64,000 bases of DNA from an uncultured Clostridia bacterium (GCA_944383515.1 CALWPV010000087.1:1-64000), one strand, 5' to 3'; positions 10,431-50,046 are shown, numbered from the stretch's first letter. The notes: generated from the letters alone by a model not told the origin. Numbers and translations are program-made.

Positions 10431-11408
10431 TTATAGCACATCCCGTAGAATGCGCTCTGCGTTTCCATGGGCAAATTTTTCTATGGCGTCGTCTGAAAAT
10501 CCGCGGCGGGAGAGCTCGTCAAAGATTTTGTATATATCCAGAGGAGAGGCAACTTCCAGGTCGCCACGAATGCCGTCCCAGTCAGAACCGAGAGCCACGG
10601 TTTCAATGCCGGCAATCGTTGCAATATGCTGCACATGATCGCCGATGCGCTTTACGGTACTGGCCGTATCGTGTATGGTTTCGCCAATGAATTCTGGCGC
10701 AAAGTTAATGCCCATGACACCGCCTTTTTCCGCTAAGAGCCGAATCATATCGTCGGTTAGGTTTCTTTGGTGCGGCGTGAGAGCGCGAGCATTGGAATGG
10801 CTGGCGACAAAGGGTTTTTGCGTAGTGCGGGCTACGTCGTAGAAGCCGCCGTCCGACAGATGGGAGACGTCAATAATCATGCCCAGCCGGTTCATTTGCT
10901 CTACGGCCTCCATTCCAAACGGTGTCAGTCCTTTTTGCATTTCCTGAGGATCCGAAGAGTTGGGATAGCCGAAGCAGTTCGGAAAATTCCATGTAAAGGA
11001 AATGAGGCGATAGCCCATGTCATAAAAAGCTGCCAGCTTTTCGTGACTGCCCTCCACCATGCGGCCGTCTTCAAAGGTTAAAAAAGCGCTGATACGGCCG
11101 GCGTTACGATTGGCTTTGTACTCTTCAAAGTTACGCGCGAAACCAATTAAATCGGCATGCTCGCGAATGGTATCCATGAGACCGTTATATAAGCGGCTGC
11201 GGAACACCTCGTCATCGATCCCTTGCGCCTGCATGTGAACTTTGGGCGGCATGAAGGTAGCAAAAAACTGTGCTGCGCAGCCGCCGGCCTTCATGCGCAC
11301 AAGATCTACGGATTTGTCGTTTTGATACAGGGAAGGGGCAGCCTCTGCGGCGCCGGATTCACGTCCAAACATCATTAGGGTGTCACAATGAAAATCAATG
11401 TAATGCAT
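10431..11408 (-). CDS. membrane-dipeptidase-type metallopeptidase (M19)
   Basis: A zinc dipeptidase of the renal dipeptidase family, cleaving dipeptides including forms with D-residues. The 325 residues begin with the metal motif DFHCDT (His7, Asp9). SHSNARALTPHQRNLTD in the middle and ALGSDWDGI towards the end supply the other ligands and the substrate pocket. There is no signal peptide, so it is probably cytoplasmic, unlike the mammalian enzyme. AAGGAGA precedes the ATG. Its long leader (about 160 bases) holds a 15-bp tandem repeat, and an extended -10 promoter lies at 11568-11576. Confidence 0.88.
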   Translation of the reverse strand: MHYIDFHCDTLMMFGRESGAAEAAPSLYQNDKSVDLVRMKAGGCAAQFFATFMPPKVHMQAQGIDDEVFRSRLYNGLMDTIREHADLIGFARNFEEYKANRNAGRISAFLTFEDGRMVEGSHEKLAAFYDMGYRLISFTWNFPNCFGYPNSSDPQEMQKGLTPFGMEAVEQMNRLGMIIDVSHLSDGGFYDVARTTQKPFVASHSNARALTPHQRNLTDDMIRLLAEKGGVMGINFAPEFIGETIHDTASTVKRIGDHVQHIATIAGIETVALGSDWDGIRGDLEVASPLDIYKIFDELSRRGFSDDAIEKFAHGNAERILRDVL

Positions 11409-11486
11409 AGTTTGTCTCCTTGTTGAGTTATGTGTTTATGTTAGAGCCATGTTCCACGCGGGCATGCCTGCATAGGAAATACCAAA

Positions 11487-11526
11487 TATGGGCATGCCAC
11501 GTATGGGCATGCCACGTATGGGCATG
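11487..11526. repeat. 15-bp tandem repeat, 2.7 copies
   Basis: The unit TATGGGCATGCCACG occurs twice in full and once in part. Each full unit contains the palindrome GGCATGCC. The array sits in the transcribed leader of the dipeptidase gene, about 80 bases before its start. Confidence 0.85.
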
Positions 11527-11567
11527 GAGGTTTTACTGGTAAAAAAGGGCGGCTCTCCTGTGTGGGC

Positions 11568-11576
11568 ATTATACCA
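11568..11576 (-). promoter_or_regulatory. dipeptidase promoter (extended -10)
   Basis: On the minus strand TGG-TATAAT is an extended -10 box. The -35 region (TCGCCA) is a poor match. Confidence 0.6.
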
Positions 11577-11654
11577 TATGTTCAGCGCGTTGGCGATCCC
11601 CGCTTTGGAAAAGTTGTTTATTATTATTTTCTCTATCCTGTAAACGCGAAAGTA

Positions 11655-11663
11655 TGTTATACT
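11655..11663 (+). promoter_or_regulatory. promoter of the leader ORF/ABC-F operon (extended -10)
   Basis: TGT-TATACT is an extended -10 box; no good -35 is seen. The start of transcription would be about 45 bases before the leader ORF. Confidence 0.6.
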
Positions 11664-11716
11664 AAAGTCTAGCGGCGCAGTGCGCCAGTTAAAAGAAACG
11701 AAAGGAGTTTATTTGT

Positions 11717-11809
11717 ATGTTACCGTACTATACAACCATTGTCAAAAGCCATGCAAAGCTCACGGTGTATCTTCCGCTTTGTATGGCTAAAGAAATGAAA
11801 TCTTTGTGA
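11717..11809 (+). CDS. 30-residue leader peptide ORF
   Basis: A short ORF with a good ribosome site (AAAGGAG, 9 bases before the ATG) encodes 30 residues from MLPYYTTIVKSH to KEMKSL. It resembles no known protein. Its coding sequence contains a 13-base stem (11747-11759 with 11776-11788, one G-U pair). The left arm can instead pair perfectly over 10 bases with 11873-11882, and the right arm (11783-11792) with 11848-11858. Such competing pairings are typical of leader peptides that control ABC-F genes through ribosome stalling. No T-rich terminator is seen, so the mechanism is unclear. Translation of this ORF is inferred only from the ribosome site. Confidence 0.6.
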   Translation: MLPYYTTIVKSHAKLTVYLPLCMAKEMKSL

Positions 11810-11882
11810 AATGTATTTCAGATTTCGTACAAGATAGTTCAGTCAGGCTTTAAGCCATTCTGCGGACATATTTGAGCTTTGC
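11747..11882 (+). promoter_or_regulatory. leader with mutually exclusive RNA pairings (candidate attenuator)
   Basis: Four segments can pair in alternative ways. Segment 1 (11747-11762) pairs with 2 (11776-11788). Segment 2 (11783-11792) pairs with 3 (11848-11858, one bulge). Segment 1 (11753-11762, GCAAAGCTCA) pairs with 4 (11873-11882, TGAGCTTTGC). Segments 1 and 2 lie inside the leader ORF; 3 and 4 lie just before the ribosome site of the next gene. Confidence 0.5.
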
Positions 11883-11918
11883 TTCTGATCGGAACGAATA
11901 AGAAAAGGAGCAAATCGT

Positions 11919-12203
11919 ATGAAATATATCAATGCAGAAGAATTACTACCTAAAGAACTCATTGAGCAGATTCAGGCTTTTATTACGGGGGGATATCTCT
12001 ATATTCCCACGAATGAGCAAAAGAAAGCGTGGGGCACCAATACCGGAATTCGCCGGGAACTGTCCGAGCGCAATCGGGAGATTTACCAAAAATACCAGCA
12101 AGGAGTCAGAGTCGAAGATCTCTCTGCAGGGTATTGCCTTTGTAAATCCAGCATTTATAAAATCATTCGTAAGCAAGCGGAGCAAAAGGAGAATCGATCA
12201 TGA
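11919..12203 (+). CDS. small HTH protein resembling the CD3324/Mor family
   Basis: A 94-residue basic protein. It begins with MKYINAEELLPKELIEQIQ, has a GGYLYIPTNEQKKAWG stretch, and ends in a predicted helix-turn-helix (GVRVEDLSAGYCLCKSSIYKIIRKQ). This layout resembles small Clostridial proteins annotated as CD3324 family with a Mor-activator-like helix-turn-helix. That assignment is from memory, and DNA binding is inferred. AAAAGGAG lies 8 bases before the ATG. Its stop overlaps the ABC-F start (ATGA), so the two are translated together, and it could regulate the operon. Confidence 0.65.
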   Translation: MKYINAEELLPKELIEQIQAFITGGYLYIPTNEQKKAWGTNTGIRRELSERNREIYQKYQQGVRVEDLSAGYCLCKSSIYKIIRKQAEQKENRS

Positions 12204-13732
12204 GTATCTTAGAAATGGAACATTTATCTCACGCGTTTGGCGATGTCATATTGTACCAAGATGCGAGTCTGCGCTTAAACGCGGGAGAACATATGGGACT
12301 GATTGGCGATAACGGGGCCGGTAAAAGTACGTTATTAAAAATCATAATGGGAACGTTTCTGCCCGATGCAGGCAGTTTGTGGATTGCCCCTCGTTACCGG
12401 CTGGGGTATCTGGATCAGCAGGCTAGGCTGAATCCGCTAGAAACCATTCACGAATATTTAAAGAGCGCCCATGAGCGGCTGTATCAAGTAGAGCGTCAAA
12501 TGGAGGAAAAATACCAGCAGGCCGCCGAAAATCAGGACCAGGGGGCGCTGCTTCAGCAAGCGGCCAGACTGCAAGAAACGCTGGAACGCGAAGGATTTTA
12601 CGAAATAGAATATCAAATGGAGCGCATAGCCCGGGGGTTAGGTGTGTATGCCATGGGGTACGATACTCCCATGGCGCAGCTTAGCGGTGGTCAGCGCGCA
12701 AAAGTGATTTTAACCAAATTATTATTGGAGTCACCCGATGTACTGCTGATGGACGAACCCACCAACTTTTTAGACGCCGAGCAAATACAGTGGCTGATTC
12801 AGTTTTTGCAAAACTACCCCGGCGCGTTTATTGTAGTGTCGCATAATCAAGAGTTTTTGGAACCGATCAGTCAGTGCATTAGCGATCTTGCATTCGGCAA
12901 AATCACTACCTATCGCGGCAGTTTTTTGGCCGCCATGCGGCAAAAAGAGTTTAATAGGCAGCAGAAGCTGCGGCTCTATGAGAGTCAGCAAAAACAAATT
13001 CAAAAGCTAGAGACTTACATTGCGCGCAACAAGGTGCGCGCCTCGACGGCGGCCATGGCGAAGAGCCGCGAAAAGGCGCTGGCGAAGATGGAGCGAATCG
13101 CGCCGCCGGCCAGTACGGGAGCGCCGCAGTTTCGGTTTCCGGCCATTCGTATGGCGCCGCAGGTTGTTTTGGAAGTAAAGAATTTGCAAATTGGCTATGA
13201 AACGCCGCTTTTGCCGCCGCTTACATTTAAAATGAAAAGCGAGGAGAGCGTGGCCATTTGCGGCTTTAACGGCGTGGGAAAGACGACGCTGTTAAATACG
13301 CTGATGGGGCGTTTGCCCAAACTGGACGGCTTTTTTTATTTATGCAGGGCAGGGAGTATTGCGTATTTTGAGCAGGAGACGAAGTGGGAGAGGCAGGTAA
13401 CGCCGCTCTCTTATTTGCGCCGCCTTTTTCCAGATCGGAGAGAAGGGGAGCTAAGGGGCGCGCTCGCACGCGCAGCGGTGAAACGTGAGCATATGCGGCA
13501 AGAAATGGTAACGCTATCCGGTGGGGAGCAGGCGAAGGTGAAGCTGGCGAGTATGAGCCTTGCGCCGCATTCTTTTTTGATTTTAGACGAACCTACGAAT
13601 CACCTCGATGAAAAGGCCAAAGAGGCGCTGATAGAAGCGCTGCGCTCTTATCACGGCGCGCTCATTGTTGTATCGCATGAAAAAGCGTTTTGCCAGGCCG
13701 TGGCGCAGCGGATAATTATGCTGGGTAGCTAA
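12200..13732 (+). CDS. ABC-F family ATPase
   Basis: A soluble protein with two ABC domains and no membrane segment, 510 residues. Walker A motifs are GDNGAGKS (36-43) and GFNGVGKT (near 354), each followed by an ABC signature (LSGGQ, LSGGEQ) and DEPTNFLD or DEPTNHLD. The linker between domains is a charged helical segment with RASTAAMAKSREKALAKMERI-like sequence, as in other ABC-F proteins. ABC-F members act on the ribosome: some ease stalled translation, others protect from antibiotics that bind near the peptidyl-transferase centre. Which applies here cannot be told from sequence. The leader ORF and RNA pairings upstream favour drug- or stall-induced expression. Confidence 0.88.
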   Translation: MSILEMEHLSHAFGDVILYQDASLRLNAGEHMGLIGDNGAGKSTLLKIIMGTFLPDAGSLWIAPRYRLGYLDQQARLNPLETIHEYLKSAHERLYQVERQMEEKYQQAAENQDQGALLQQAARLQETLEREGFYEIEYQMERIARGLGVYAMGYDTPMAQLSGGQRAKVILTKLLLESPDVLLMDEPTNFLDAEQIQWLIQFLQNYPGAFIVVSHNQEFLEPISQCISDLAFGKITTYRGSFLAAMRQKEFNRQQKLRLYESQQKQIQKLETYIARNKVRASTAAMAKSREKALAKMERIAPPASTGAPQFRFPAIRMAPQVVLEVKNLQIGYETPLLPPLTFKMKSEESVAICGFNGVGKTTLLNTLMGRLPKLDGFFYLCRAGSIAYFEQETKWERQVTPLSYLRRLFPDRREGELRGALARAAVKREHMRQEMVTLSGGEQAKVKLASMSLAPHSFLILDEPTNHLDEKAKEALIEALRSYHGALIVVSHEKAFCQAVAQRIIMLGS

Positions 13733-40722: not shown

Positions 40723-41205
40723 TTACCCTTTTTCGTCAGTTTCAAACTGAGTAATGCTGCCGTCTCGGGCATCGATTTCAAACGAATACTGGGTCTGGCC
40801 TACATAGAATTCTACGTCATAATGGGGGATTGCTTTTTCGTCAGAAAAATCCAGAGAAACGGTCAGATCGGTAACTTCGTCTTCGGTGAGCGTCACTTCG
40901 GCAAGAGCGGCCTCTTTAGCCTCTTCCTCTGTTATTTGAACTTTAGAGGAAGGCGCTGTTGTTTCAGAGTCATTGGAAGCGGAATCGAAGCGGCTGCTTT
41001 CATTACGGGAGGTATTGCCGGACTCGTCTAAGGCAGAGTCGTCGGGTAGTAGATCGTCTACCAGGGAGTCGTCGCCAAGAAGGCTGGAGTCATCGATCAG
41101 CGGTAGAGAAGACATATCCATTTCTTCTTCGGCGCGGCGGCAGCCGGCCAGGCAGCTCATGCTCAGCAAAAGCAGCAGAGCGGATAATAACACTTTGTTT
41201 TTCAT
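40723..41205 (-). CDS. lipoprotein with PepSY-like domain
   Basis: A 160-residue secreted protein. The signal peptide (MKNKVLLSALLLLLSMSCLAGC) ends in a lipobox LAGC, so Cys22 should be lipidated and the protein anchored outside the membrane. A long acidic, serine-rich stretch follows (about 25-85), then a PepSY-type module (QITEEEAKEAALAEV to SFEIDARDGSI). PepSY domains often inhibit peptidases or regulate sensors. GGATCC-like AAAGGATC precedes the ATG. It is monocistronic. Confidence 0.85.
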   Translation of the reverse strand: MKNKVLLSALLLLLSMSCLAGCRRAEEEMDMSSLPLIDDSSLLGDDSLVDDLLPDDSALDESGNTSRNESSRFDSASNDSETTAPSSKVQITEEEAKEAALAEVTLTEDEVTDLTVSLDFSDEKAIPHYDVEFYVGQTQYSFEIDARDGSITQFETDEKG

Positions 41206-41410: not shown

Positions 41411-41767
41411 ATGAAGGTCAGCGAAATTCAAAAAGTGCTGAGCGCGAAACAGTTTAATGACGTAGAGGAAGAGCTTTCGGTGGATTATGGCTATAGCTGT
41501 GACCTGATGAGCGATGTGCTGGCTTTTGCGCAGAATAACGATGTGCTCCTGACCGGCACGGTTAACCCGCAGGTCATTCGTACATGCCAAATGGTAGACA
41601 TTCGAGTGATTGTTTTTGTGCGCTGTAAGGAGCCGACGCAGGAGCTGATTGATCAGGCGACAAAAGCGGGTATTTTACTGCTGGGAACGCATTATTCTAT
41701 GTATATGGCGAGTAGTCTACTCTATATGGCCGGCCTTCCAGGGGAGGAAATTGAAAATGACTTTTAA
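41411..41767 (+). CDS. DRTGG-domain protein (first copy)
   Basis: A 118-residue cytoplasmic protein of the DRTGG type, a small alpha/beta domain known from phosphotransacetylase and related proteins, thought to bind a ligand or partner. Visible parts are MKVSEIQKVL at the start, DLMSDVLAFAQNNDVLLTG in the centre and KAGILLLGTHYSMYMAS near the end. It begins the six-gene set ahead of the hydrogenase structural genes and has a homologue of similar size at 43531. AAGGAGGAG precedes the ATG. It overlaps the following ATPase gene by 11 bases. Function is not known. Confidence 0.75.
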   Translation: MKVSEIQKVLSAKQFNDVEEELSVDYGYSCDLMSDVLAFAQNNDVLLTGTVNPQVIRTCQMVDIRVIVFVRCKEPTQELIDQATKAGILLLGTHYSMYMASSLLYMAGLPGEEIENDF

Positions 41768-42173
41768 TTATGAAGTCGACGCGTCGGTTCCGGAAATGGC
41801 TGGTCGAGCTTCTACTGAGTTCAAGAGTGTGCTTAAACAGCTTGGGGTAAGCGCCAAGGTCATTCGCCGTATTTCTATTGCCATGTATGAGGGCGAGATC
41901 AATATGGTGATCCATGCCAATGGAGGAACCATTACTTGTCAGGTCGATGAAAATCAAATTGAAATTGTTATGGCCGATGTGGGACCGGGTATTCCCGATC
42001 TGGATCTGGCTATGAAAGCCGGCTGGTCTACGGCTTCGCCGCAGGCGCGTGAACTGGGTTTCGGAGCCGGCATGGGTATGCCCAATATGAAGAAATTTAG
42101 TGATGAAATGGAAGTTGAGACGCAGATAGGCGTGGGAACAACCCTAACCTTGCGATTTAATTTAGCGGCATAA
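41757..42173 (+). CDS. anti-sigma/histidine-kinase-type ATPase (first copy)
   Basis: A 138-residue single-domain GHKL ATPase like RsbW/SpoIIAB. The N-box is IAMYEGEINMVIHANGG, the G1 box is VADVGPGIPDL, and GFGAGMGMPNMKKFSDEM is the G2 lid, followed by GTTLTLRF. There is no transmembrane or phospho-acceptor His domain. RsbW-type proteins bind sigma or anti-anti-sigma partners and phosphorylate serine; the partner here is unknown. GGGAGG lies 9 bases before ATG 41757, within the preceding gene. A longer upstream frame has no ribosome site. Confidence 0.82.
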   Translation: MTFNYEVDASVPEMAGRASTEFKSVLKQLGVSAKVIRRISIAMYEGEINMVIHANGGTITCQVDENQIEIVMADVGPGIPDLDLAMKAGWSTASPQARELGFGAGMGMPNMKKFSDEMEVETQIGVGTTLTLRFNLAA

Positions 42174-42186
42174 GGGAGGGGAGTAT

Positions 42187-43527
42187 ATGAGCGTAACATC
42201 GGTTCGCTTAGTCGAAAAACGTTGCGTTGGTTGTACTACTTGTATTAAACGGTGTCCAACCGAGGCTATTCGGGTACGAGGCGGCAAGGCGCACATATTA
42301 ACGGATCTTTGCATTGATTGTGGTATGTGTATGCAGGTCTGCAAACATAAAGCAAAAATTGCCGAAACGAAGACGCTGGATGAAATTCTGGCTATGCCGT
42401 ACCGCATTAAAATTGCGCTGCCACCGCCGTCGTTATACGCGCAATTTGAGGGAAACCGCAATGTCAACCGTATTTTAACGGCCTTACGGCGGATTGGGTT
42501 TGACGCGGTGTTTGGTGTGGCGCGCGGCGCGGAAATTATTACGGAAGCTACGCGCAGGTTCATTGCAGAGCATCCGCGCAGCAACGAGGAAGGACCGTGG
42601 ATTTCTTCGGCGTGTCCCGTTATTGTTAGGTTGATTCAAAACCGGTTTCCTTCGCTCATTGAGAATATTTTGCCGCTCATATCGCCCATGGAAGCAGCGG
42701 CCAGAATAGCAAGAGAGCATTTTAAAGAAAAGGGATATCGGGATGAGGAGATTGGCGTTTTTTTCATTACCCCTTGTCCGGCTAAGGTGAGCGAGGTAGC
42801 ATTTCCGCGAATGGTGGAAAAGTCGGCGGTAACCGATACCGTTGCACTTAATGAGATCTATTATAAAATCAGACCTTTCATTAAATCCATTACTGACGAA
42901 GAAATTGAAACCTTACAGCTTAGCGGAGAAGAGGGAATTCGCTGGGCTCATATCGGCGGAGAAAGCGAAGGATTGGGTCTGAATGATATTTTAGCCGTCG
43001 ATGGCATAGACAATGTAATTGAAGTGCTGGATCATCTGGAAAACGGCCTGATTCAGCGCGTAGAGTTTGTGGAAGCCAACGCTTGTACCGGCGGCTGCTT
43101 GGGCGGTCCGCTTGCGGTGGAAAATCCGTTTAGTGCTGAAACTAGAATGAAAAAAGTGCTGCGCCATAATCAGCACCCACAATACAATGAAGAGCTTATG
43201 GAAGAGACAACGAACGTTGCTTCAGAGAAAATATTGGAAAATGAAGACAACCTACACCTGAGCTCGGACATGCAAGAAGCACTGCGGATGATGGCAGAGC
43301 GAGACGCGCTTCATAAGGTATTACCTAAAATCGATTGCGGCGCCTGTGGCGCTCCAACCTGTTTTGCCTTTGCGGCCGATGTGGTACGCGGCGAGGCGCA
43401 GCCGGAGGACTGTATTTTTTATTTACGAGATCGGGTTAAAGAAGTAGCCCAGGAAATGGTGAATCTTTCTGCTAAAATGCCGCCAAGCATTAAGCAAAAA
43501 GAGGACGTTCAAAATGAGGAGGAATGA
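42187..43527 (+). CDS. [FeFe]-hydrogenase-like Fe-S protein, probable sensor
   Basis: A 446-residue protein. N-terminal bacterial ferredoxin domain with two CxxCxxC motifs (CVGCTTCIKRCP, CIDCGMCMQVC). Then an H-cluster-type domain with L1 SSACP at 140-144, L2 TPCPAK at 195-200 and L3 ANACTGGCLGG with Cys300 and Cys304. All four H-cluster cysteines remain, but the proton-path Cys of catalytic enzymes (TSCCP) is Ala and the GGGQP tail of L3 is missing. A C-terminal 4Fe-4S module follows (DCGACGAPTCFAF ... DC). These changes and its place among regulators suggest H2 or redox sensing instead of catalysis. Confidence 0.82.
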   Translation: MSVTSVRLVEKRCVGCTTCIKRCPTEAIRVRGGKAHILTDLCIDCGMCMQVCKHKAKIAETKTLDEILAMPYRIKIALPPPSLYAQFEGNRNVNRILTALRRIGFDAVFGVARGAEIITEATRRFIAEHPRSNEEGPWISSACPVIVRLIQNRFPSLIENILPLISPMEAAARIAREHFKEKGYRDEEIGVFFITPCPAKVSEVAFPRMVEKSAVTDTVALNEIYYKIRPFIKSITDEEIETLQLSGEEGIRWAHIGGESEGLGLNDILAVDGIDNVIEVLDHLENGLIQRVEFVEANACTGGCLGGPLAVENPFSAETRMKKVLRHNQHPQYNEELMEETTNVASEKILENEDNLHLSSDMQEALRMMAERDALHKVLPKIDCGACGAPTCFAFAADVVRGEAQPEDCIFYLRDRVKEVAQEMVNLSAKMPPSIKQKEDVQNEEE

Positions 43528-43530
43528 TGT

Positions 43531-43863
43531 ATGGTAGTACGCGATTTATTAGACCTTAAGGAACTTAAATTGCTGCAGGAAGCGGATCTGGACGCCGCGA
43601 TCAGCGGCGGTTACATGGGCGATTTACTGAGCGTGGTTATGGGCGAGGCCGAAGAGGAACAGCTCTGGATCACGATTCAAAGCCATGTAAATGTAGTGGC
43701 GGTGGCAGCCTTAAAAGGAATTCCTGCGGTAATTATTGCGCACGGCTACGAGCCTGACGAAGAAACATTGGCTAAGGCAAAAGAGGAAGGGATTACGCTG
43801 CTGAGTACAGAGCTGGATCCGTTTTCTATTGCGAAAAAGCTGATTTTGGAGAAAGGGCTATGA
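43531..43863 (+). CDS. DRTGG-domain protein (second copy)
   Basis: A 110-residue relative of the protein at 41411. It shows LDAAISGGYMGDLLSVVMGEAEEEQLWIT, then VNVVAVAALKGIPAVIIAHG and KEEGITLLSTELDPFSIAKKL. The two copies flank the hydrogenase-like sensor in the same order, each followed by an ATPase, as if a two-gene module had been duplicated. GAGGAATG precedes the ATG three bases after the sensor's stop, and its own stop overlaps the next gene. Its ligand is unknown. Confidence 0.75.
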   Translation: MVVRDLLDLKELKLLQEADLDAAISGGYMGDLLSVVMGEAEEEQLWITIQSHVNVVAVAALKGIPAVIIAHGYEPDEETLAKAKEEGITLLSTELDPFSIAKKLILEKGL

Positions 43864-44423
43864 TGAAGGAGCTGGCCCTACACGTGCTGGATATTAGTGA
43901 AAATAGCGTGCGGGGCGACGGTAAGCATATTGAAATTTTGCTGCGAGAAGATCTTCGCGACGATACGCTGGTTATACGCATTACCGACGACGGGCGAGGC
44001 ATCGCTCCGGATATGCTTAAAACCATTAAAGACCCGTTTACAACGACGCGAACATTGCGAAAGGTTGGCTTAGGTATTCCGTTCCTGAATGACACCTGCC
44101 TTATGTGCGGCGGAAAGCTTGAGATTAGCAGCACGGTAGGCGTAGGAACCACGGTAACGGCCAGTATGCAATATAGTCACATTGACAGGCCGCCGGTAGG
44201 CGACATGCCTTCGACGCTCATGACACTGTTCTCTTCCTATCCGGACATTGTTTTTCGCTTTCAATATGAATATCGCGCAGCGCAGGAAGAGGAGATGCGG
44301 GTTTTCTCAATTTCTACCGAAGAGCTGGCGCAGATTTTAGAGGGCGTTCCGTTAACGAATCCAAGTGTTTATATGTGGGTAAAAGAGTACCTGCAGGAGA
44401 ATATGGAGGACTTAAAGAAATAG
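43860..44423 (+). CDS. GHKL ATPase (second copy)
   Basis: A 187-residue histidine-kinase-type ATPase without a HisKA dimerisation domain. The N-box is HVLDISENSVRGDGKHI, the G1 box ITDDGRGIAPDML, and PFTTTRTLRKVGLGIPFL is the F/G2 region; GVGTTVTASM closes the fold. About 70 further residues form a C-terminal extension not found in the first copy (41757). It overlaps the preceding DRTGG gene by four bases (ATGA). It may act with that DRTGG protein and the sensor; this is inference from order. Confidence 0.82.
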   Translation: MMKELALHVLDISENSVRGDGKHIEILLREDLRDDTLVIRITDDGRGIAPDMLKTIKDPFTTTRTLRKVGLGIPFLNDTCLMCGGKLEISSTVGVGTTVTASMQYSHIDRPPVGDMPSTLMTLFSSYPDIVFRFQYEYRAAQEEEMRVFSISTEELAQILEGVPLTNPSVYMWVKEYLQENMEDLKK

Positions 44424-44450
44424 ATTTAAAAAACTGTTTAAAAAAGGTGG

Positions 44451-44479
44451 TTTACATTTTGAGAAGAGTTTGATATACT
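44451..44479 (+). promoter_or_regulatory. promoter ahead of the PHP and hydrogenase structural genes
   Basis: TTTACA (44451-44456), a 17-base spacer and TATACT (44474-44479). It could drive PHP-hydC-fd-hydB-hydA apart from the regulatory genes upstream. Confidence 0.75.
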
Positions 44480-44528
44480 AGGAGTGTTATGGGGTCATGT
44501 TATAGAGTATATATTTGGAGGAGAGCCT

Positions 44529-45260
44529 ATGGAAATAGTTTGTGACTTACATATGCATTCAGCGCTCTCACCGTGCGCACTCAATGAAATGACACCGAAT
44601 AACATGGTCAATATGGCATTGCTAAGCGGGCTGACGGCGATTGCAGTCACGGATCATAACTCTTGCCGCAACGCAGAGAGTGTGATGCAGGTGGCGCAGG
44701 GAACGGGACTGGTGGTAGTGCCAGGGCTGGAAGTGCAGACGCGAGAAGAGGTGCATGTAGTGACCTTGTTTCAGAATCTGGACGATGCGCTTGCTATGCA
44801 GGAGGCAATTTATAAAACCCTACCCTCTATGCGGGCTCCGGAAAAAATACGGGCTAAACAGTTAGTCCTGAATGCCGACGACGAGGTTGTTGCCGAAGAA
44901 GAGGTAATGTTGTCGATGTCCAGTACGCTTACTCTGGAACAGGTAGTCTGTCAAGCACTTTCGCTGGGAGGGTTGGCCATTCCGGCGCATGTCGATAGGA
45001 AAAGCTGCAGCGTACTGTCGAACCTTGGGTTTATTCCGGAGGATTTGCAGTTTCCTACTTTAGAACTTTCGATGTATGCAGAGAAAGAAGCCTATGAGAA
45101 GCGGTTTCCGCAGTACCGTTTAATTTCGGCGTCGGATGCGCATGAACTCGGCTTCATTGGTATGGCGCCAGCTACGTTAGAGGTAGAGACGGTTTCTGCT
45201 CACGGAATTTTAGAGGCGCTGCGCAGGCCGGCCAATGACCAGGGCTTACCCGGATGCTGA
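44529..45260 (+). CDS. PHP-domain phosphoesterase
   Basis: A 243-residue metal-dependent hydrolase. The PHP motifs are visible in order: DLHMHSALSPCA at the start, AVTDHNSCRN near 38-47, then AIPAHVDRKS and ISASDAHELG in the second half. These supply the metal-binding His and Asp residues. The family hydrolyses phosphoesters such as 3',5'-bisphosphates or histidinol phosphate; the substrate here is unknown. GGAGGAGA lies just ahead of ATG 44529. A PHP gene at this place is often seen beside hydrogenase genes of Clostridia and may belong to their regulation or assembly. Confidence 0.85.
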   Translation: MEIVCDLHMHSALSPCALNEMTPNNMVNMALLSGLTAIAVTDHNSCRNAESVMQVAQGTGLVVVPGLEVQTREEVHVVTLFQNLDDALAMQEAIYKTLPSMRAPEKIRAKQLVLNADDEVVAEEEVMLSMSSTLTLEQVVCQALSLGGLAIPAHVDRKSCSVLSNLGFIPEDLQFPTLELSMYAEKEAYEKRFPQYRLISASDAHELGFIGMAPATLEVETVSAHGILEALRRPANDQGLPGC

Positions 45261-45348
45261 TTAGCCGGGGGCCAAGCAGTTGAATCATCAGGTTTTCGGC
45301 GTAAGCCGGTAGAAACATAATTGAAACATAATTTAGGAGGTATTGAAA

Positions 45349-45834
45349 ATGGCATGTAATTGTGCTAAAGGCGCTGACAAAGAAAAGTATGAACAGCTGG
45401 ATGCGTTTATTGCTTCTTTGCCAAGTACCCAAGGAGAACTGATTCGTGTGCTGCATACGGCACAGGGAATTTTCGGCTATTTGCCGAAAGAGGTTCAAAT
45501 TTATGTAGCTAAGAAGCTGGACGTACCGGTATCGAAGGTATATGGCGTGGTTAGCTTCTATTCGTTCTTTACCATGAAACCGAAGGGTGAGTACGATATT
45601 TCCGTATGTATGGGAACGGCCTGCTATGTGCGCGGCGCTGAGAATGTGCTGAATGAGATTAAAAATCAGCTGGGCATCGATATTGGAGACACAACGGCAG
45701 ACGGCAAGTTTTCGTTACGGACGCTTCGCTGTGTGGGCGCGTGCGGGCTGGCTCCGGTTGTCATGATTGGCGATAAGGTTTATGGCCGGGTAACGCCGGA
45801 TATGGTATCGGGCATCTTGGCTGAGTGCAAATAA
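45349..45834 (+). CDS. hydC: hydrogenase subunit, NuoE-like [2Fe-2S] protein
   Basis: A 161-residue thioredoxin-fold subunit that holds one [2Fe-2S] cluster and docks to the NADH-oxidising subunit. Ligands are seen in CMGTACYVRG and CVGACGLAP (C-x4-C and C-x3-C pattern). LHTAQGIFGYLPKEV and VYGVVSFYSFF are conserved NuoE parts. AGGAGG precedes ATG 45349. It forms the electron path between the NuoF-like subunit (46397) and the H-cluster subunit (48211). Naming follows Thermotoga HydC. Confidence 0.92.
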   Translation: MACNCAKGADKEKYEQLDAFIASLPSTQGELIRVLHTAQGIFGYLPKEVQIYVAKKLDVPVSKVYGVVSFYSFFTMKPKGEYDISVCMGTACYVRGAENVLNEIKNQLGIDIGDTTADGKFSLRTLRCVGACGLAPVVMIGDKVYGRVTPDMVSGILAECK

Positions 45835-45982
45835 GAGGAGCGCGTAGTGTGAAAAGCAGCTCGAAGGGCTGTTGTTACGCGGCTATTTGTGCCGAAGCGC
45901 CACAAATAGCTCCTATTCGCAGGCGTAATTTGAGATTTGCGCCGCGACCTTCGCGCTAAGGCGCTTCGGAATGGAGGTTAAA
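45835..45982 (+). other. hairpin-rich spacer within the hydrogenase operon
   Basis: This 148-base gap holds an outer stem CGCGTA/TACGCG (45841-45846, 45876-45881) with an inner stem, a perfect 10-bp stem GCTATTTGTG/CACAAATAGC (45882-45891, 45901-45910), and a GCGC hairpin that merges into the TTCGGAATGGAGG leader (45964-45977). No T run follows any of them, so they are not typical terminators. They may set mRNA processing or relative expression. Confidence 0.6.
45953..45977 (+). repeat. leader motif: small hairpin plus TTCGGAATGGAGG (ferredoxin copy)
   Basis: A GCGC-TAAG-GCGC hairpin runs into TTCGGAATGGAGG, 5 bases before the ATG of the ferredoxin-like gene. Identical over 17 bases to the pepT leader. 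Confidence 0.65.
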
Positions 45983-46378
45983 ATGGCTAAAATCAAATCT
46001 TTGGAAGAGCTGAAAAAAATTAAGGAGCAGGCACAGCAGTCGGTGTCGCTGCGTGTGAAAGGCGATAATATTGAAAATTTAGTTCAGGTGCGTGTAGCGA
46101 TGGCTACCTGCGGTATTGCCGCCGGCGCCCGCGAGACAATGAACGAGTTTATTAAAGTGTTAAACGAAGAGCACATGGACAACGTTGTGGTAACACAGAC
46201 CGGCTGCATGGGATATTGCTATGCCGAGCCCACCATTGAGCTGACCATGCCGGGCAAAGAGCCGGTGGTATATGGCAATGTAGATAAGAATAAAGTGCAT
46301 GAAATTGTTGAAAAAGCCATTAAGGGCGGCGAGATGCTGGACGGAATTATTCCGGTAACGCATAACACCGTGGAATAA
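45983..46378 (+). CDS. [2Fe-2S] ferredoxin-like (thioredoxin-fold) protein
   Basis: A 131-residue thioredoxin-like ferredoxin. The [2Fe-2S] ligands are CGIAAGA in VRVAMATCGIAAGARE and CMGYC in TQTGCMGYCYAEP. It resembles the N-terminal domain of the next gene (NuoF-like) and stand-alone subunits found between NuoE- and NuoF-like genes in clostridial hydrogenases. It may be a fourth subunit or an electron shuttle. The start at 45983 is set by GGAGG 5 bases upstream. The long spacer before it suggests separate translation or mRNA control. Confidence 0.85.
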   Translation: MAKIKSLEELKKIKEQAQQSVSLRVKGDNIENLVQVRVAMATCGIAAGARETMNEFIKVLNEEHMDNVVVTQTGCMGYCYAEPTIELTMPGKEPVVYGNVDKNKVHEIVEKAIKGGEMLDGIIPVTHNTVE

Positions 46379-46396
46379 TTGTTTTAGGAGGAAATT

Positions 46397-48190
46397 ATGG
46401 CAGAGTATAAATTTCATATTCTGGTCTGCGGCGGTACAGGATGTCTGTCTTCTAATTCCCATGAGATTGCCGATGGCCTGAAAGACGCAATTAAAGCGGC
46501 AGGAATGGAAGAGGAAGTGAAAGTACTGCAGACCGGTTGCTTCGGTTTCTGCGAAAAAGGACCGATTGTGAAGGTTCTTCCCGATAACACCTTCTATACG
46601 CAGGTTAAGCCGGAAGACGTCAATGAGATCGTTTCGGAGCATATTGTGAAAGGCCGTAAAGTGAATCGCCTGCTGTATGTGGACCCGGAAAACGAAAAAC
46701 ATATTTCCGATGCGAAGCATATGGACTTCTATAAAAAGCAGATGCGAATCGCGCTGAGAAACTGCGGTTTTATTGATCCGGAAAATATTGACGAGTACAT
46801 TGGACGCGATGGATATCAGGCACTGGCTAAATGCCTTACCGAAATGACGCCAGAGCAGGTAATTGAAGAGGTGAAAAAATCGGGACTGCGCGGCCGTGGC
46901 GGCGCCGGATTTCCCACAGGTCTTAAGTGGCAGTTTGCGCACGGCTATCAAGCAGATCAGAAGTATGTAGTCTGCAATGCCGATGAAGGAGATCCTGGTG
47001 CGTTTATGGATCGTTCCATTTTGGAAGGCGACCCGAACAGTATTATTGAAGCGATGGCAATTTGTGGTTACGCCATTGGCGCATCGCAGGGACGCGTTTA
47101 TATTCGTGCTGAGTACCCTCTGGCCATTCAGCGTCTGGAAATTGCTATTGCGCAGGCGCGTGAATATGGACTTTTGGGTGACAATATTTTAGGTACTGAT
47201 TTTAGCTTCGATATTCAGCTCTGCTTCGGCGCAGGCGCTTTCGTATGCGGCGAGGAAACGGCTCTGATCCATTCTATGGAAGGGCAGCGAGGCGAGCCTA
47301 CGATTAAGCCTCCGTTCCCGGCTGAAAATGGTTTCTGGAATAAACCGACTAACGTAAATAACGTTGAAACGTTTGCTAACATTCCTGTGATTTTCTTGAA
47401 AGGCGCCGATTGGTTCAGCAGCATTGGTACCGAGAAGAGCAAAGGAACCAAGGTATTTGCGCTGGCTGGTAAAATTAACAACGTAGGTCTGATCGAAGTT
47501 CCTATGGGCACGACACTGCGCGAGGTTATTTATGACATCGGCGGCGGTATTAAAAACGGCAAAAAATTTAAAGCGGTTCAGACGGGTGGTCCGTCCGGCG
47601 GTTGCTTAACGGAAAAGGATCTGGATACGCCGATTGACTTTGACAATCTGGTGGCTAAGGGGTCAATGATGGGTTCCGGCGGTATGATTGTTATGGATGA
47701 AGACGATTGTATGCCTTCGGTAGCGCGCTTCTATATGGAATTTATTGAAGAAGAATCGTGCGGTAAGTGTACGCCATGCCGTATTGGTACCAAACGCCTG
47801 TCGGAGCTTTTGAAGGATATTACCGGCGGTAAAGGCACCATGGAGCATATTGCCGAATTGAAACGAGTTTCTCAGGTTATTCGTGATACAGCACTCTGCG
47901 GCTTGGGACAGACTGCGCCGAATCCGGTTCTTTCTACGCTGGCTCACTTTGAAGACGAATATATTGCCCATGTTAAGGATCATACCTGTCCCGCGGGTAA
48001 ATGTACGGCTCTGCTTAAATTTAAGATTAACCCCGAAGCGTGTAAAGGTTGTACGCTTTGCGCGAGAAAATGCCCGGTTGGCGCTATCTCCGGCGAAGTA
48101 CGTAAACCGCATACGATCGATCAGGCTAAGTGTATTAAATGCGGCGCTTGCATGGATAATTGTAAGTTTGGCGCTATCACGAAGAATTAA
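46397..48190 (+). CDS. hydB: hydrogenase subunit, NuoF-like NADH-oxidising flavoprotein
   Basis: A 597-residue subunit that exchanges electrons with NAD(H) through FMN. Domains in order: thioredoxin-like [2Fe-2S] (GGTGCLSSNS ... QTGCFGFCEKGP), the NADH/FMN core with GRGGAGFPTGLKW and CNADEGDPGAFMDR, the [4Fe-4S] motif ESCGKCTPCRIG, and at the C-terminus a 2x[4Fe-4S] ferredoxin domain (CKGCTLCARKCP, CIKCGACMDNC). The extra domain fits HydB of electron-bifurcating hydrogenases, which couple NADH and ferredoxin to H2. AGGAGG precedes the ATG. HydA follows after 20 bases. Confidence 0.94.
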   Translation: MAEYKFHILVCGGTGCLSSNSHEIADGLKDAIKAAGMEEEVKVLQTGCFGFCEKGPIVKVLPDNTFYTQVKPEDVNEIVSEHIVKGRKVNRLLYVDPENEKHISDAKHMDFYKKQMRIALRNCGFIDPENIDEYIGRDGYQALAKCLTEMTPEQVIEEVKKSGLRGRGGAGFPTGLKWQFAHGYQADQKYVVCNADEGDPGAFMDRSILEGDPNSIIEAMAICGYAIGASQGRVYIRAEYPLAIQRLEIAIAQAREYGLLGDNILGTDFSFDIQLCFGAGAFVCGEETALIHSMEGQRGEPTIKPPFPAENGFWNKPTNVNNVETFANIPVIFLKGADWFSSIGTEKSKGTKVFALAGKINNVGLIEVPMGTTLREVIYDIGGGIKNGKKFKAVQTGGPSGGCLTEKDLDTPIDFDNLVAKGSMMGSGGMIVMDEDDCMPSVARFYMEFIEEESCGKCTPCRIGTKRLSELLKDITGGKGTMEHIAELKRVSQVIRDTALCGLGQTAPNPVLSTLAHFEDEYIAHVKDHTCPAGKCTALLKFKINPEACKGCTLCARKCPVGAISGEVRKPHTIDQAKCIKCGACMDNCKFGAITKN

Positions 48191-48210
48191 GGAAGGAGTG
48201 AAGAGATACA

Positions 48211-49989
48211 ATGTCTAATATGATCAATTTGACCATTGACGGAATCGAGACACAAGTACCGGCAGGCAGCACCATTTTGCAGGCTGCTGAGCAGGTGGGC
48301 GTACATATTCCCACCCTGTGCTACTTAGATCTTCACGAGATTGGCATTGAAAATAAACCGGCTTCGTGCCGTGTGTGTGTAGTTGAGGTGGTAGGTCGCC
48401 GGAATCTGGCGCCAGCCTGCGCAACGCCGGTTGCGGAAGGAATGGTGGTTAGAACCAATACGCCTAAAGTTATTGATTCCCGTAAGATGGTAGTGGAGCT
48501 TATGCTCTCGGATCATCCGAAAGACTGTCTTACCTGCCCCAAATCGGGTCAGTGCGAACTGCAGACGCTGGCAGAGAGCCTTGGCGTGCGGAAAATTCGC
48601 GTGACCGGCGATTCGATGTCTACGTATGCATTAGACGAAAGCTCCCCCTCCATTATTCGCGACCGCGACAAATGTATTATGTGCCGCCGCTGCGAGACCA
48701 TGTGTAATCAGGTGCAGACCGTAGGCGCGTTAACGGCTGTTGACCGTGGTTTTGGCGCTGTGGTTTCTACGGCCTTTGATCTGCCTATTAACGAGACGGT
48801 ATGTACCATGTGCGGACAGTGCATTCAGGTTTGTCCGGTAGGCGCTCTGACAGAGAAGAGTAACCTGGATGAAGTGATTGAGGCTCTGGGCGATCCGGAT
48901 AAAACGGTTATTGTCAACACGGCTCCCGCCGTGCGGGCTGCGCTGGGCGAAGAATTTGGCATTGAGCCTGGCTATAGTGTAACCGGAGAAATGGCAGCTG
49001 CTCTGCGTCGTGTTGGTTTTGATTACGTATTCGATACCGATTTTGCGGCCGACCTTACGATTATGGAGGAAGCGCAGGAGCTGGTTGATCGTTTGAACAA
49101 GTTCCTGAAGGGCGAGCCGGTGGCAATGCCCATGATTACCTCTTGCTGCCCGGCCTGGATTAACTTCCTGGAGACGCAGTTCCCGGATATGCAGGAGCTT
49201 CCCTCTTCGGCTAAGTCGCCCATGGAAATGTTTGGCGCCATGGCCAAATCGTACTTCGCTCAGAAGAAAGGCATTGATCCCGAGGATCTGGTGGTTGTTT
49301 CTGTTATGCCCTGTACGGCGAAGAAATTTGAGGCGAAACGGGACGAGATGAATTCCAACGGAACTAGCCGCAACGATATCGATATTTCGATTACAACCAG
49401 AGAGTTGGCACAGCTGATTAAGCAGATGAATATTGACCTGCTTGAACTCGAGGAAGAGGATTTTGACGATCCGCTTGGCGAGTCAACGGGTGCCGGCGTT
49501 ATTTTCGGTAAAACCGGCGGCGTTATGGAAGCGGCCCTGAGAACGGGTTACGAGTGGATTACCGGACAGGAGCTGGGAGATGTTGAATTTGAAGATGTTC
49601 GCAGCACTGAGTATGGTATGAAGGTAGCGCATGTGCAGATTGGCGATGTAACGCTGAATGTTGCGGTAGCCAGTGGCCTGGGCAATGCGCGTGCCATTAT
49701 GGAAGAGATTAAAGCAGGCAATCCGAATCAGCTGCATTTCATTGAGATTATGGCTTGTCCTGGTGGCTGCGTTAATGGCGGCGGTCAGCCGTATCATTTT
49801 GGCGATCTGAGCATTATTCAGGATCGGCAGGCAGCGCTGCTGGAAGAAGACGAGAATAAGACCATTCGTAAGTCTCACGAGAATCCTTCCATTAAAAAGA
49901 TTTATGAGGAGTTCCTGGGCAAACCCGGTTCTCATGTAGCTCATGAGTATTTGCATACTCCGGCTCACGTATATCGTGAAAAAATCTGA
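48211..49989 (+). CDS. hydA: [FeFe]-hydrogenase catalytic subunit
   Basis: The 592-residue H2-evolving subunit. N-terminal [2Fe-2S] domain (CYLDLHEIG ... SCRVCVVEV), a His-ligated [4Fe-4S] motif (HPKDCLTCPKSGQC), two further [4Fe-4S] clusters (CIMCRRCETMCN, CTMCGQCIQVCP), then the H-cluster: L1 TSCCPAW (310-316), L2 MPCTAKKFE (from 366), L3 MACPGGCVNGGGQP (from 514). All H-cluster Cys and the proton-path Cys are present, so it should be active. A small-subunit-like C-terminal tail follows. With HydB and HydC it makes the NADH-linked trimeric enzyme; bifurcation with ferredoxin is inferred from subunit make-up. The maturases HydE, HydF and HydG are not in the window. Confidence 0.95.
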   Translation: MSNMINLTIDGIETQVPAGSTILQAAEQVGVHIPTLCYLDLHEIGIENKPASCRVCVVEVVGRRNLAPACATPVAEGMVVRTNTPKVIDSRKMVVELMLSDHPKDCLTCPKSGQCELQTLAESLGVRKIRVTGDSMSTYALDESSPSIIRDRDKCIMCRRCETMCNQVQTVGALTAVDRGFGAVVSTAFDLPINETVCTMCGQCIQVCPVGALTEKSNLDEVIEALGDPDKTVIVNTAPAVRAALGEEFGIEPGYSVTGEMAAALRRVGFDYVFDTDFAADLTIMEEAQELVDRLNKFLKGEPVAMPMITSCCPAWINFLETQFPDMQELPSSAKSPMEMFGAMAKSYFAQKKGIDPEDLVVVSVMPCTAKKFEAKRDEMNSNGTSRNDIDISITTRELAQLIKQMNIDLLELEEEDFDDPLGESTGAGVIFGKTGGVMEAALRTGYEWITGQELGDVEFEDVRSTEYGMKVAHVQIGDVTLNVAVASGLGNARAIMEEIKAGNPNQLHFIEIMACPGGCVNGGGQPYHFGDLSIIQDRQAALLEEDENKTIRKSHENPSIKKIYEEFLGKPGSHVAHEYLHTPAHVYREKI

Positions 49990-50014
49990 GGCTGCTATCT
50001 GACTGTGATTTGTG

Positions 50015-50046
50015 ATGAGGGCGCTTAGGCGCCCTCATTTATTTTT
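50015..50046 (+). terminator. hydrogenase operon terminator
   Basis: A 10-bp stem ATGAGGGCGC/GCGCCCTCAT with a TTAG loop, then TTATTTTT. Confidence 0.85.

Follow-up and report, generated by a model that had tools for sequence, protein, structure and literature searches.

The closest described relative of the gene at the center of this analysis is TamHydS of Thermoanaerobacter mathranii, a slow but active hydrogenase without a PAS domain, in which H2 triggers a structural change and which has been proposed as an H2 sensor (PMC8163306, PMC10407848, PMC13104023). TamHydS lies upstream of a bifurcating hydrogenase, and group D [FeFe]-hydrogenase genes ahead of bifurcating hydrogenases, accompanied by a kinase-like gene, had been noted earlier (PMC3561251, Rydzak 2012; PMC3608648, Verbeke 2013). 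The type is therefore already known as a proposed H2 sensor with these two neighbors, while the published work on TamHydS concerns the enzyme alone. The DNA analyzed here is a 64,000-nucleotide (nt) stretch from an uncultured Clostridia bacterium (GCA_944383515.1 CALWPV010000087.1:1-64000; the window). At 41411-45260 it holds a cassette of six genes, DRTGG1, ATP1, HydS, DRTGG2, ATP2, and PHP, in which HydS is the counterpart of TamHydS. Here the hydrogenase gene comes with a set of neighbors, DRTGG1-ATP1-HydS-DRTGG2(-PHP) plus ATP2, and with the Rnf complex as a second companion.

Other described systems share parts with the cassette. Group C sensory [FeFe]-hydrogenases (TmHydS, R. albus HydS, and HfsB/HfsC of T. 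saccharolyticum) have the same ferredoxin, H-domain, and C-terminal iron–sulfur (FeS) architecture and the same tie to a group A hydrogenase. They contain a PAS domain and often come with a PP2C phosphatase, whereas the group D type lacks both and has kinase-type ATPases and DRTGG proteins as partners. In the SpoIIAB/RsbW partner-switching modules the ATPase is of the same GHKL type as ATP1, in which the kinase-type residues are intact; those modules have a STAS antagonist and a sigma factor, but the cassette has neither, and DRTGG proteins flank ATP1. Known DRTGG regulatory domains (C. perfringens Mn-pyrophosphatase, 3l2b; A. fulgidus AF1212, 2ioj; the N-domain of HPr kinase) have the same predicted fold by Foldseek, but those of the cassette are stand-alone proteins of 110-118 amino acids (aa) that occur as paralogous pairs without a fused enzyme. 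The Rnf operon, rnfCDGEAB, encodes a ferredoxin:NAD oxidoreductase, and no GHKL, anti-sigma, or HydS companion of it was found described in the literature searched.

Beyond this background, the neighbor set of HydS is conserved across Clostridia, Rnf is an alternative companion to the hydrogenase, and ATP2 tracks HydS. We give even credence to reading the cassette as a module that signals H2 or reduced-ferredoxin poise and adjusts ferredoxin-NAD oxidoreductases through kinase-like ATPase and DRTGG proteins.

Neighborhoods were compared in an order sample of 196 genomes and a class sample of 291, each with one genome per species. The cassette order is kept in more than 100 other loci at about 40-50% protein identity, an association far beyond chance. 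The ATP1-HydS pair is nearly invariant, and DRTGG1, DRTGG2, PHP, and ATP2 are variably present; among 98 loci with enough flank, ATP1 adjoins HydS in all 98 and DRTGG1 in 95. The smallest units are ATP1-HydS pairs (loci L101, L112, L134) and DRTGG1-ATP1-HydS triplets (L092, L105, L126), found in Clostridia and two Spirochaetes. Three apparent gene fusions, a 769-aa HydS frame in L126 and long ATP1 frames in L133 and L149, proved to be upstream frame extensions over neighboring genes. With HydS in 138 of 291 class genomes, the cassette is common. Its carriers include laboratory strains such as Clostridium thermocellum (group D gene Cthe_0335, hyd Cthe_0340-0342, rnf Cthe_2430-2435; PMC3561251) and Thermoanaerobacterium.

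In the order sample, group D HydS occurs in 59 genomes at 60 places, two of which belong to a single genome and lie on different short contigs. Tallied by eye from coordinates and a reading of the loci, 31 places have HydABC only, 19 lie directly before rnfC only, in 1 (L158) the cassette is followed by HydABC and Rnf in tandem, 7 are at contig ends, and 2 have neither. The Rnf-linked HydS form one clade across three families, in which the sole other row is a contig-end copy. All H-cluster residues are kept in this clade, and its genomes encode a group A6 HydA elsewhere, which in the two checked (L167, L168) has PHP beside it without the rest of the cassette. At the class level, two further families show DRTGG1-ATP1-DRTGG2-PHP-ATP2-rnfCDGEAB without HydS; in those families (L198, L202) HydS is near an nqrBCDEF-like cluster, in L202 with an intervening opposite-strand HD-domain-like gene. 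An earlier note, made from the window alone, had proposed that the cassette tunes the hydrogenase. Its tie to hyd holds, but the proposal is too narrow, since one clade and two other families carry the genes ahead of rnfC and free-standing copies are common. That note would also have counted it against the proposal if the genes were often found without any hydrogenase. Such separation concerns adjacency only, as an A6 hydrogenase is nonetheless encoded in 56 of the 59 cassette genomes and RnfC in every one of them. The second companion suggests that the cassette balances electron carriers and does not serve H2 production alone.

ATP2 was searched as a profile and is single copy in 68 of the 196 order genomes. 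Compared by eye with the RnfC and HydA coordinates, it stands immediately upstream of rnfC in 48, within hyd operons in 14, and is unresolved or elsewhere in 6. Twenty ATP2 loci far from HydS or in HydS-less genomes were fetched: 18 read HydC-ATP2-Fdx-HydB(-HydA) and 2 have ATP2 ahead of rnfC. It is present in 58 of the 59 HydS genomes versus 10 of 137 others (58/1/10/127, given here and below as genomes with both, HydS only, ATP2 only, and neither; Fisher 5e-38), and stratification by family leaves p = 1.8e-15, where both values assume an independence of same-family genomes that is not fully true and stratification lessens the effect of kinship and does not remove it. HydA and RnfC follow HydS far less well than ATP2 does. 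Restricting the count to the 126 genomes that encode HydA as well as RnfC gives 55/1/9/61, which shows that neither enzyme produces the tie as a side effect. Family f2 (10/0/0/11) has the cassette at hydABC and ATP2 at rnfC, and the link is therefore more than adjacency; L158 (6820-7365) and L170 (7987-8535) likewise have ATP2 directly ahead of rnfC in genomes with the sensor cassette at hydABC. The class sample agrees, with 133 genomes having both, 5 HydS only, and 13 ATP2 only (138 HydS and 146 ATP2 genomes), and in about 40 of the 133 the two genes are far apart or on separate contigs.

In the window, the cassette opens a ten-gene unit on the + strand, 41411-49989, which is laid out as follows.

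41411..41767, + strand: DRTGG1, 118-aa DRTGG-domain protein
41757..42173, + strand: ATP1, 138-aa SpoIIAB/RsbW-type GHKL ATPase
42187..43527, + strand: HydS, predicted 446-aa group D (M2e) [FeFe]-hydrogenase
43531..43863, + strand: DRTGG2, 110-aa DRTGG-domain protein, paralog of DRTGG1
43860..44423, + strand: ATP2, 187-aa histidine-kinase-type GHKL ATPase
44451..44479, + strand: promoter-like site TTTACA-17-TATACT, a consensus match only (10/12), in the 105-bp gap before PHP
44529..45260, + strand: PHP-family metallo-phosphoesterase, 243 aa, metal-binding residues kept
45343..45834, + strand: HydC, NuoE-type [2Fe-2S] subunit, probable ATG at 45349
45971..46378, + strand: thioredoxin-like [2Fe-2S] ferredoxin of the hyd operon, by domain matches
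46397..48190, + strand: HydB, NuoF-type FMN/NADH subunit (TIGR01945 rnfC match, E 2.6e-11)
48211..49989, + strand: HydA, group A6 NADH-dependent bifurcating-type [FeFe]-hydrogenase (NF040763, 878 bits, above cut-off)
50014..50039, + strand: strong terminator-like hairpin closing the ten-gene unit (11 pairs, 7 G-C, T-rich tail)

Domain searches and the A6 assignment of HydA uphold the six-gene order, domains, and coordinates given in the earlier note, ahead of a bifurcating-type hydrogenase, and its statement that the cassette has no sigma factor, STAS, or DNA-binding gene is confirmed. Its count of four overlapping junctions has to be corrected: DRTGG1/ATP1 overlap by 11 nt and DRTGG2/ATP2 by 4 nt, ATP1/HydS and HydS/DRTGG2 are separated by 13 and 3 nt, and PHP begins 105 nt downstream of ATP2, behind the promoter-like site. 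The first five genes are accordingly tightly coupled, PHP more loosely. Promoter-like sites are not enriched in the region (11 found versus 12.1 expected in shuffles). A Rex operator upstream of the operon was considered and rejected, as the window has four weak matches, none nearby and equal in number to the shuffles. Divergent from the operon start is a small lipoprotein-like gene (40723-41205, - strand), for which cassette-linked conservation has not been seen so far. Profile searches find all parts of HydABC, HydA with a NuoG-like N-domain, HydB NuoF-like, and HydC NuoE-like, and on these matches the complex is assigned to the electron-bifurcating group A6/A3 type, with bifurcation predicted.

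The earlier note had described the HydS product as an H-cluster-like sensor of H2 or redox state. The sensory role and the tie to a bifurcating hydrogenase are supported and partly published (PMC8163306, PMC3561251, PMC3608648), but the protein is more than H-cluster-like: by its residues it is classed as a group D (M2e) [FeFe]-hydrogenase and an ortholog of TamHydS. It has two N-terminal [4Fe-4S] ferredoxin motifs, an H-domain, and a C-terminal Cx2Cx4Cx16C [4Fe-4S] motif (C384-x2-C387-x4-C392-x16-C409), its matches including ferredoxin and PF04060 FeS domains. A domain search of the window HydS gave no PAS match, which sets it apart from the group C sensory type. TamHydS has the same domain order, C-terminal motif, four H-cluster cysteines, Glu252/Glu289 proton path, and Ala for C299. 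In the window protein the relevant residues are A142, C143, C197, K200, E259, D272, E296, C300, and C304, so that all four H-cluster cysteines and the CN-binding Lys are kept, as are the equivalents of TamHydS E252, E289, and D265. An ortholog in T. wiegelii, in the same type of cassette, matches 17 of 17 published TamHydS residues at identical numbers. Across 106 aligned HydS of known context the H-cluster cysteines, CN-binding Lys, and Glu289 are invariant (106/106), and the proton-path Cys is Ala in 99.

ATP1 has the residues of a kinase-type ATPase: E45, N49, D74-x-GPGI, a GFGAGMG lid, and GT. In 119 aligned sequences the N-box residues E45 and N49 are conserved at at least 97%, and the G1 and lid motifs are near-invariant. 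Its best PDB match is the SpoIIAB anti-sigma F factor (1til, 1l0o, 1th8), with RsbW (6m36) also matched. For both ATP1 and ATP2 the Pfam matches are to the ATPase domain alone, and Pfam finds no dimerization/phosphoacceptor His (DHp) domain in either, indicating that they are not two-component histidine kinases. ATP2 has a conserved C-terminal extension of its own (HIDRPPLGD...), and its alignment with ATP1 is limited to 71 columns of the generic GHKL nucleotide-binding half. The two belong to different subfamilies, so the duplicated DRTGG-ATPase pairs that had been suggested for this locus are refuted for the ATPases, and only the DRTGG genes are duplicates (hhalign probability 99.2%, E 5.5e-20).

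The two DRTGG proteins have in common a near-invariant Asp31-x-x-Ser34. DRTGG1 keeps D31-x-M-S34-D35 and T48-G49...R57-T58, and DRTGG2 keeps D31-L-L-S34, W46, T48, and N54. Against PF07085, DRTGG1 of the window scores 13.8 bits, under the Pfam cut-off of 25.2; its T. wiegelii ortholog passes, DRTGG1 exceeds the cut-off in L113 and L177, and DRTGG2 of the window passes as well. AlphaFold2 (AF2) models support the assignment, that of DRTGG1 (predicted local distance difference test, pLDDT, 90) having the DRTGG structure 2ioj as best PDB match and that of DRTGG2 (pLDDT 98) matching 3l2b, 2ioj, and the HPr kinase N-domain 1ko7 in Foldseek. In both models Ser34 starts the helix after strand 26-29. 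The gene beside TamHydS was called an AraC regulator (Land 2020, PMC8163306). In T. wiegelii, HydS is flanked by ATP1 and by a DRTGG2 without a helix-turn-helix domain, and there is no AraC-type gene among the frames flanking that cassette; judging from this close relative of T. mathranii, the label is probably a misannotation of DRTGG2.

How these parts might work together can be set out only tentatively: it is possible that an H-cluster sensor signals to a SpoIIAB-type kinase with DRTGG proteins replacing STAS as substrate, and through these to a target-borne ATP2 docked at HydB or RnfC, setting the flux of HydABC and Rnf. HydS would be the sensor, its H-cluster and ferredoxin clusters equilibrating with H2 and low-potential electrons, a step supported by the published biochemistry of TamHydS and, for the window HydS, read from its residues. 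It would then act on ATP1, its nearly invariant neighbor, the pairing being observed and the contact presumed. ATP1 may phosphorylate DRTGG1, DRTGG2, or both, or bind them in a nucleotide-dependent manner, and the DRTGG proteins would occupy the place of the STAS proteins in RsbW/SpoIIAB systems. The partner switching of RsbW type that the earlier note had in mind finds no STAS partner here. The sole STAS protein detected in the window genome sits in a spoIIAA-spoIIAB-sigF-like operon, and a search for a STAS partner elsewhere in the genome found nothing but this SpoIIAA-like protein, which makes classical switching on STAS unlikely. ATP2, carried by the target operon beside the HydB or RnfC gene, would read the DRTGG state and shift HydABC or Rnf up or down in activity, assembly, or synthesis; the genomic and phylogenetic coupling is observed, and the action is what we infer from it. 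RnfC and HydB are homologous, with shared PF01512 (Nuo51 FMN) and SLBB domains, and offer ATP2 a common target. The weakest step is that of PHP (conserved metal-binding residues H10, D42, H43, E68, H76, H154, D203, H205), which may strip phosphate or break down a nucleotide ligand. We thus infer the sensing, the phosphorylation, and the target contact alike.

Several points weigh against this chain. No experiment on ATP1, ATP2, DRTGG1, DRTGG2, or PHP was found in the literature searched, and we know of none. Free-standing DRTGG1-ATP1-HydS-DRTGG2-PHP operons are common, so the cassette need not adjoin a target, and where it does, this argues only weakly for direct action. AF1212 also has a Ser at the position of Ser34, which therefore need not be a phosphosite. 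The AF2 predictions cover single chains only. Lastly, none of the 19 genomes in family f1, that of the window (the window genome and 18 relatives), gave a HydG match over the curated cut-off; 16 of the 19 encode an A6 HydA, and the best HydG-model match in the window genome is ThiH inside a thi operon (G000:C62:6498-7505, L206). This weakens the claim of a complete H-cluster in the window HydS; possible causes are H-cluster maturation without HydG, a highly divergent HydG, or a method gap.

The signal could instead end in transcription, with HydS and ATP1 switching a DRTGG protein whose binding partner is a sigma or transcription factor from another locus, and so changing the expression of hyd, rnf, and fermentation genes. 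Free-standing cassettes, which act in trans, would suit this, deletion of the group C relative HfsB alters adhE expression and hydrogenase activity (PMC5707799, PMC11837493), and an H2-responsive operon of R. albus includes a group C sensor (PMC6776011). We nevertheless consider it doubtful: the neighborhoods examined share no conserved DNA-binding or sigma gene, the AraC of Land 2020 appears to be DRTGG2, and the carriage of ATP2 in target operons is left unexplained.

That carriage, almost without exception in hyd operons or beside rnfC, is what would be expected if ATP2 and PHP served the NuoF-type flavoprotein or Fe-S insertion as chaperone-like or repair factors, with HydS as a scaffold, and PHP indeed remains with hydABC where the rest sits at rnf. 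Most HydABC/Rnf genomes do without ATP2, however (68 with ATP2 versus 150 with HydA and 160 with RnfC, of 196), so assembly can in general proceed without it. As its presence follows the sensor and not the enzymes, an assembly role is quite unlikely.

It is very unlikely that HydS is an extra catalytic subunit moving H2 electrons into or out of Rnf or HydABC and gated by the other proteins. Its ferredoxin and PF04060 FeS domain pair, which also occurs in RnfB-type proteins, gives an rnfB model match, and the gene is near an Nqr-like cluster in the two families mentioned above. All cluster-binding residues of HydS are kept and TamHydS is catalytically active (PMC8163306), but that enzyme turns over very slowly (PMC10407848), Ala takes the place of the proton-path Cys in nearly all HydS copies, and the HydS gene is often distant from the hyd and rnf operons. 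That there is no functional unit, the gene order being kept by common descent and linked inheritance, is barely credible: relatedness among the genomes and the confinement of the Rnf linkage in the order to one clade speak for it, but HydS and ATP2 co-occur over long distances within families, the order persists at 40-50% identity, and minimal ATP1-HydS units occur in another phylum.

Two further findings deserve mention beside the proposed signalling module. In L112, the gene directly behind the ATP1-HydS pair (11392-13305) joins an [FeFe]-hydrogenase to a methyl-accepting chemotaxis signalling domain, and in L101 a CheW-like gene is immediately ahead of the pair, which hints at a chemotaxis branch. 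The window genome also has a group C [FeFe]-hydrogenase with PAS (L033, 8827-10512, contig C100). The gene behind it encodes a SpoIIE-type PP2C phosphatase and is divided between the contig ends C100/C3; in relatives (L038) this hydrogenase-phosphatase pair is right behind hydA. An attractive but speculative idea is that group C HydS and the phosphatase may act opposite to the cassette.

The literature leaves open how group D hydrogenases relay their signal (Land 2020), and the conserved partners of HydS are concrete candidates for this relay. The links to Rnf and ATP2 suggest that the proteins of the cassette monitor the whole ferredoxin/NADH balance, the balance that decides the output of H2, acetate, and ethanol by rumen, gut, and biofuel Clostridia.

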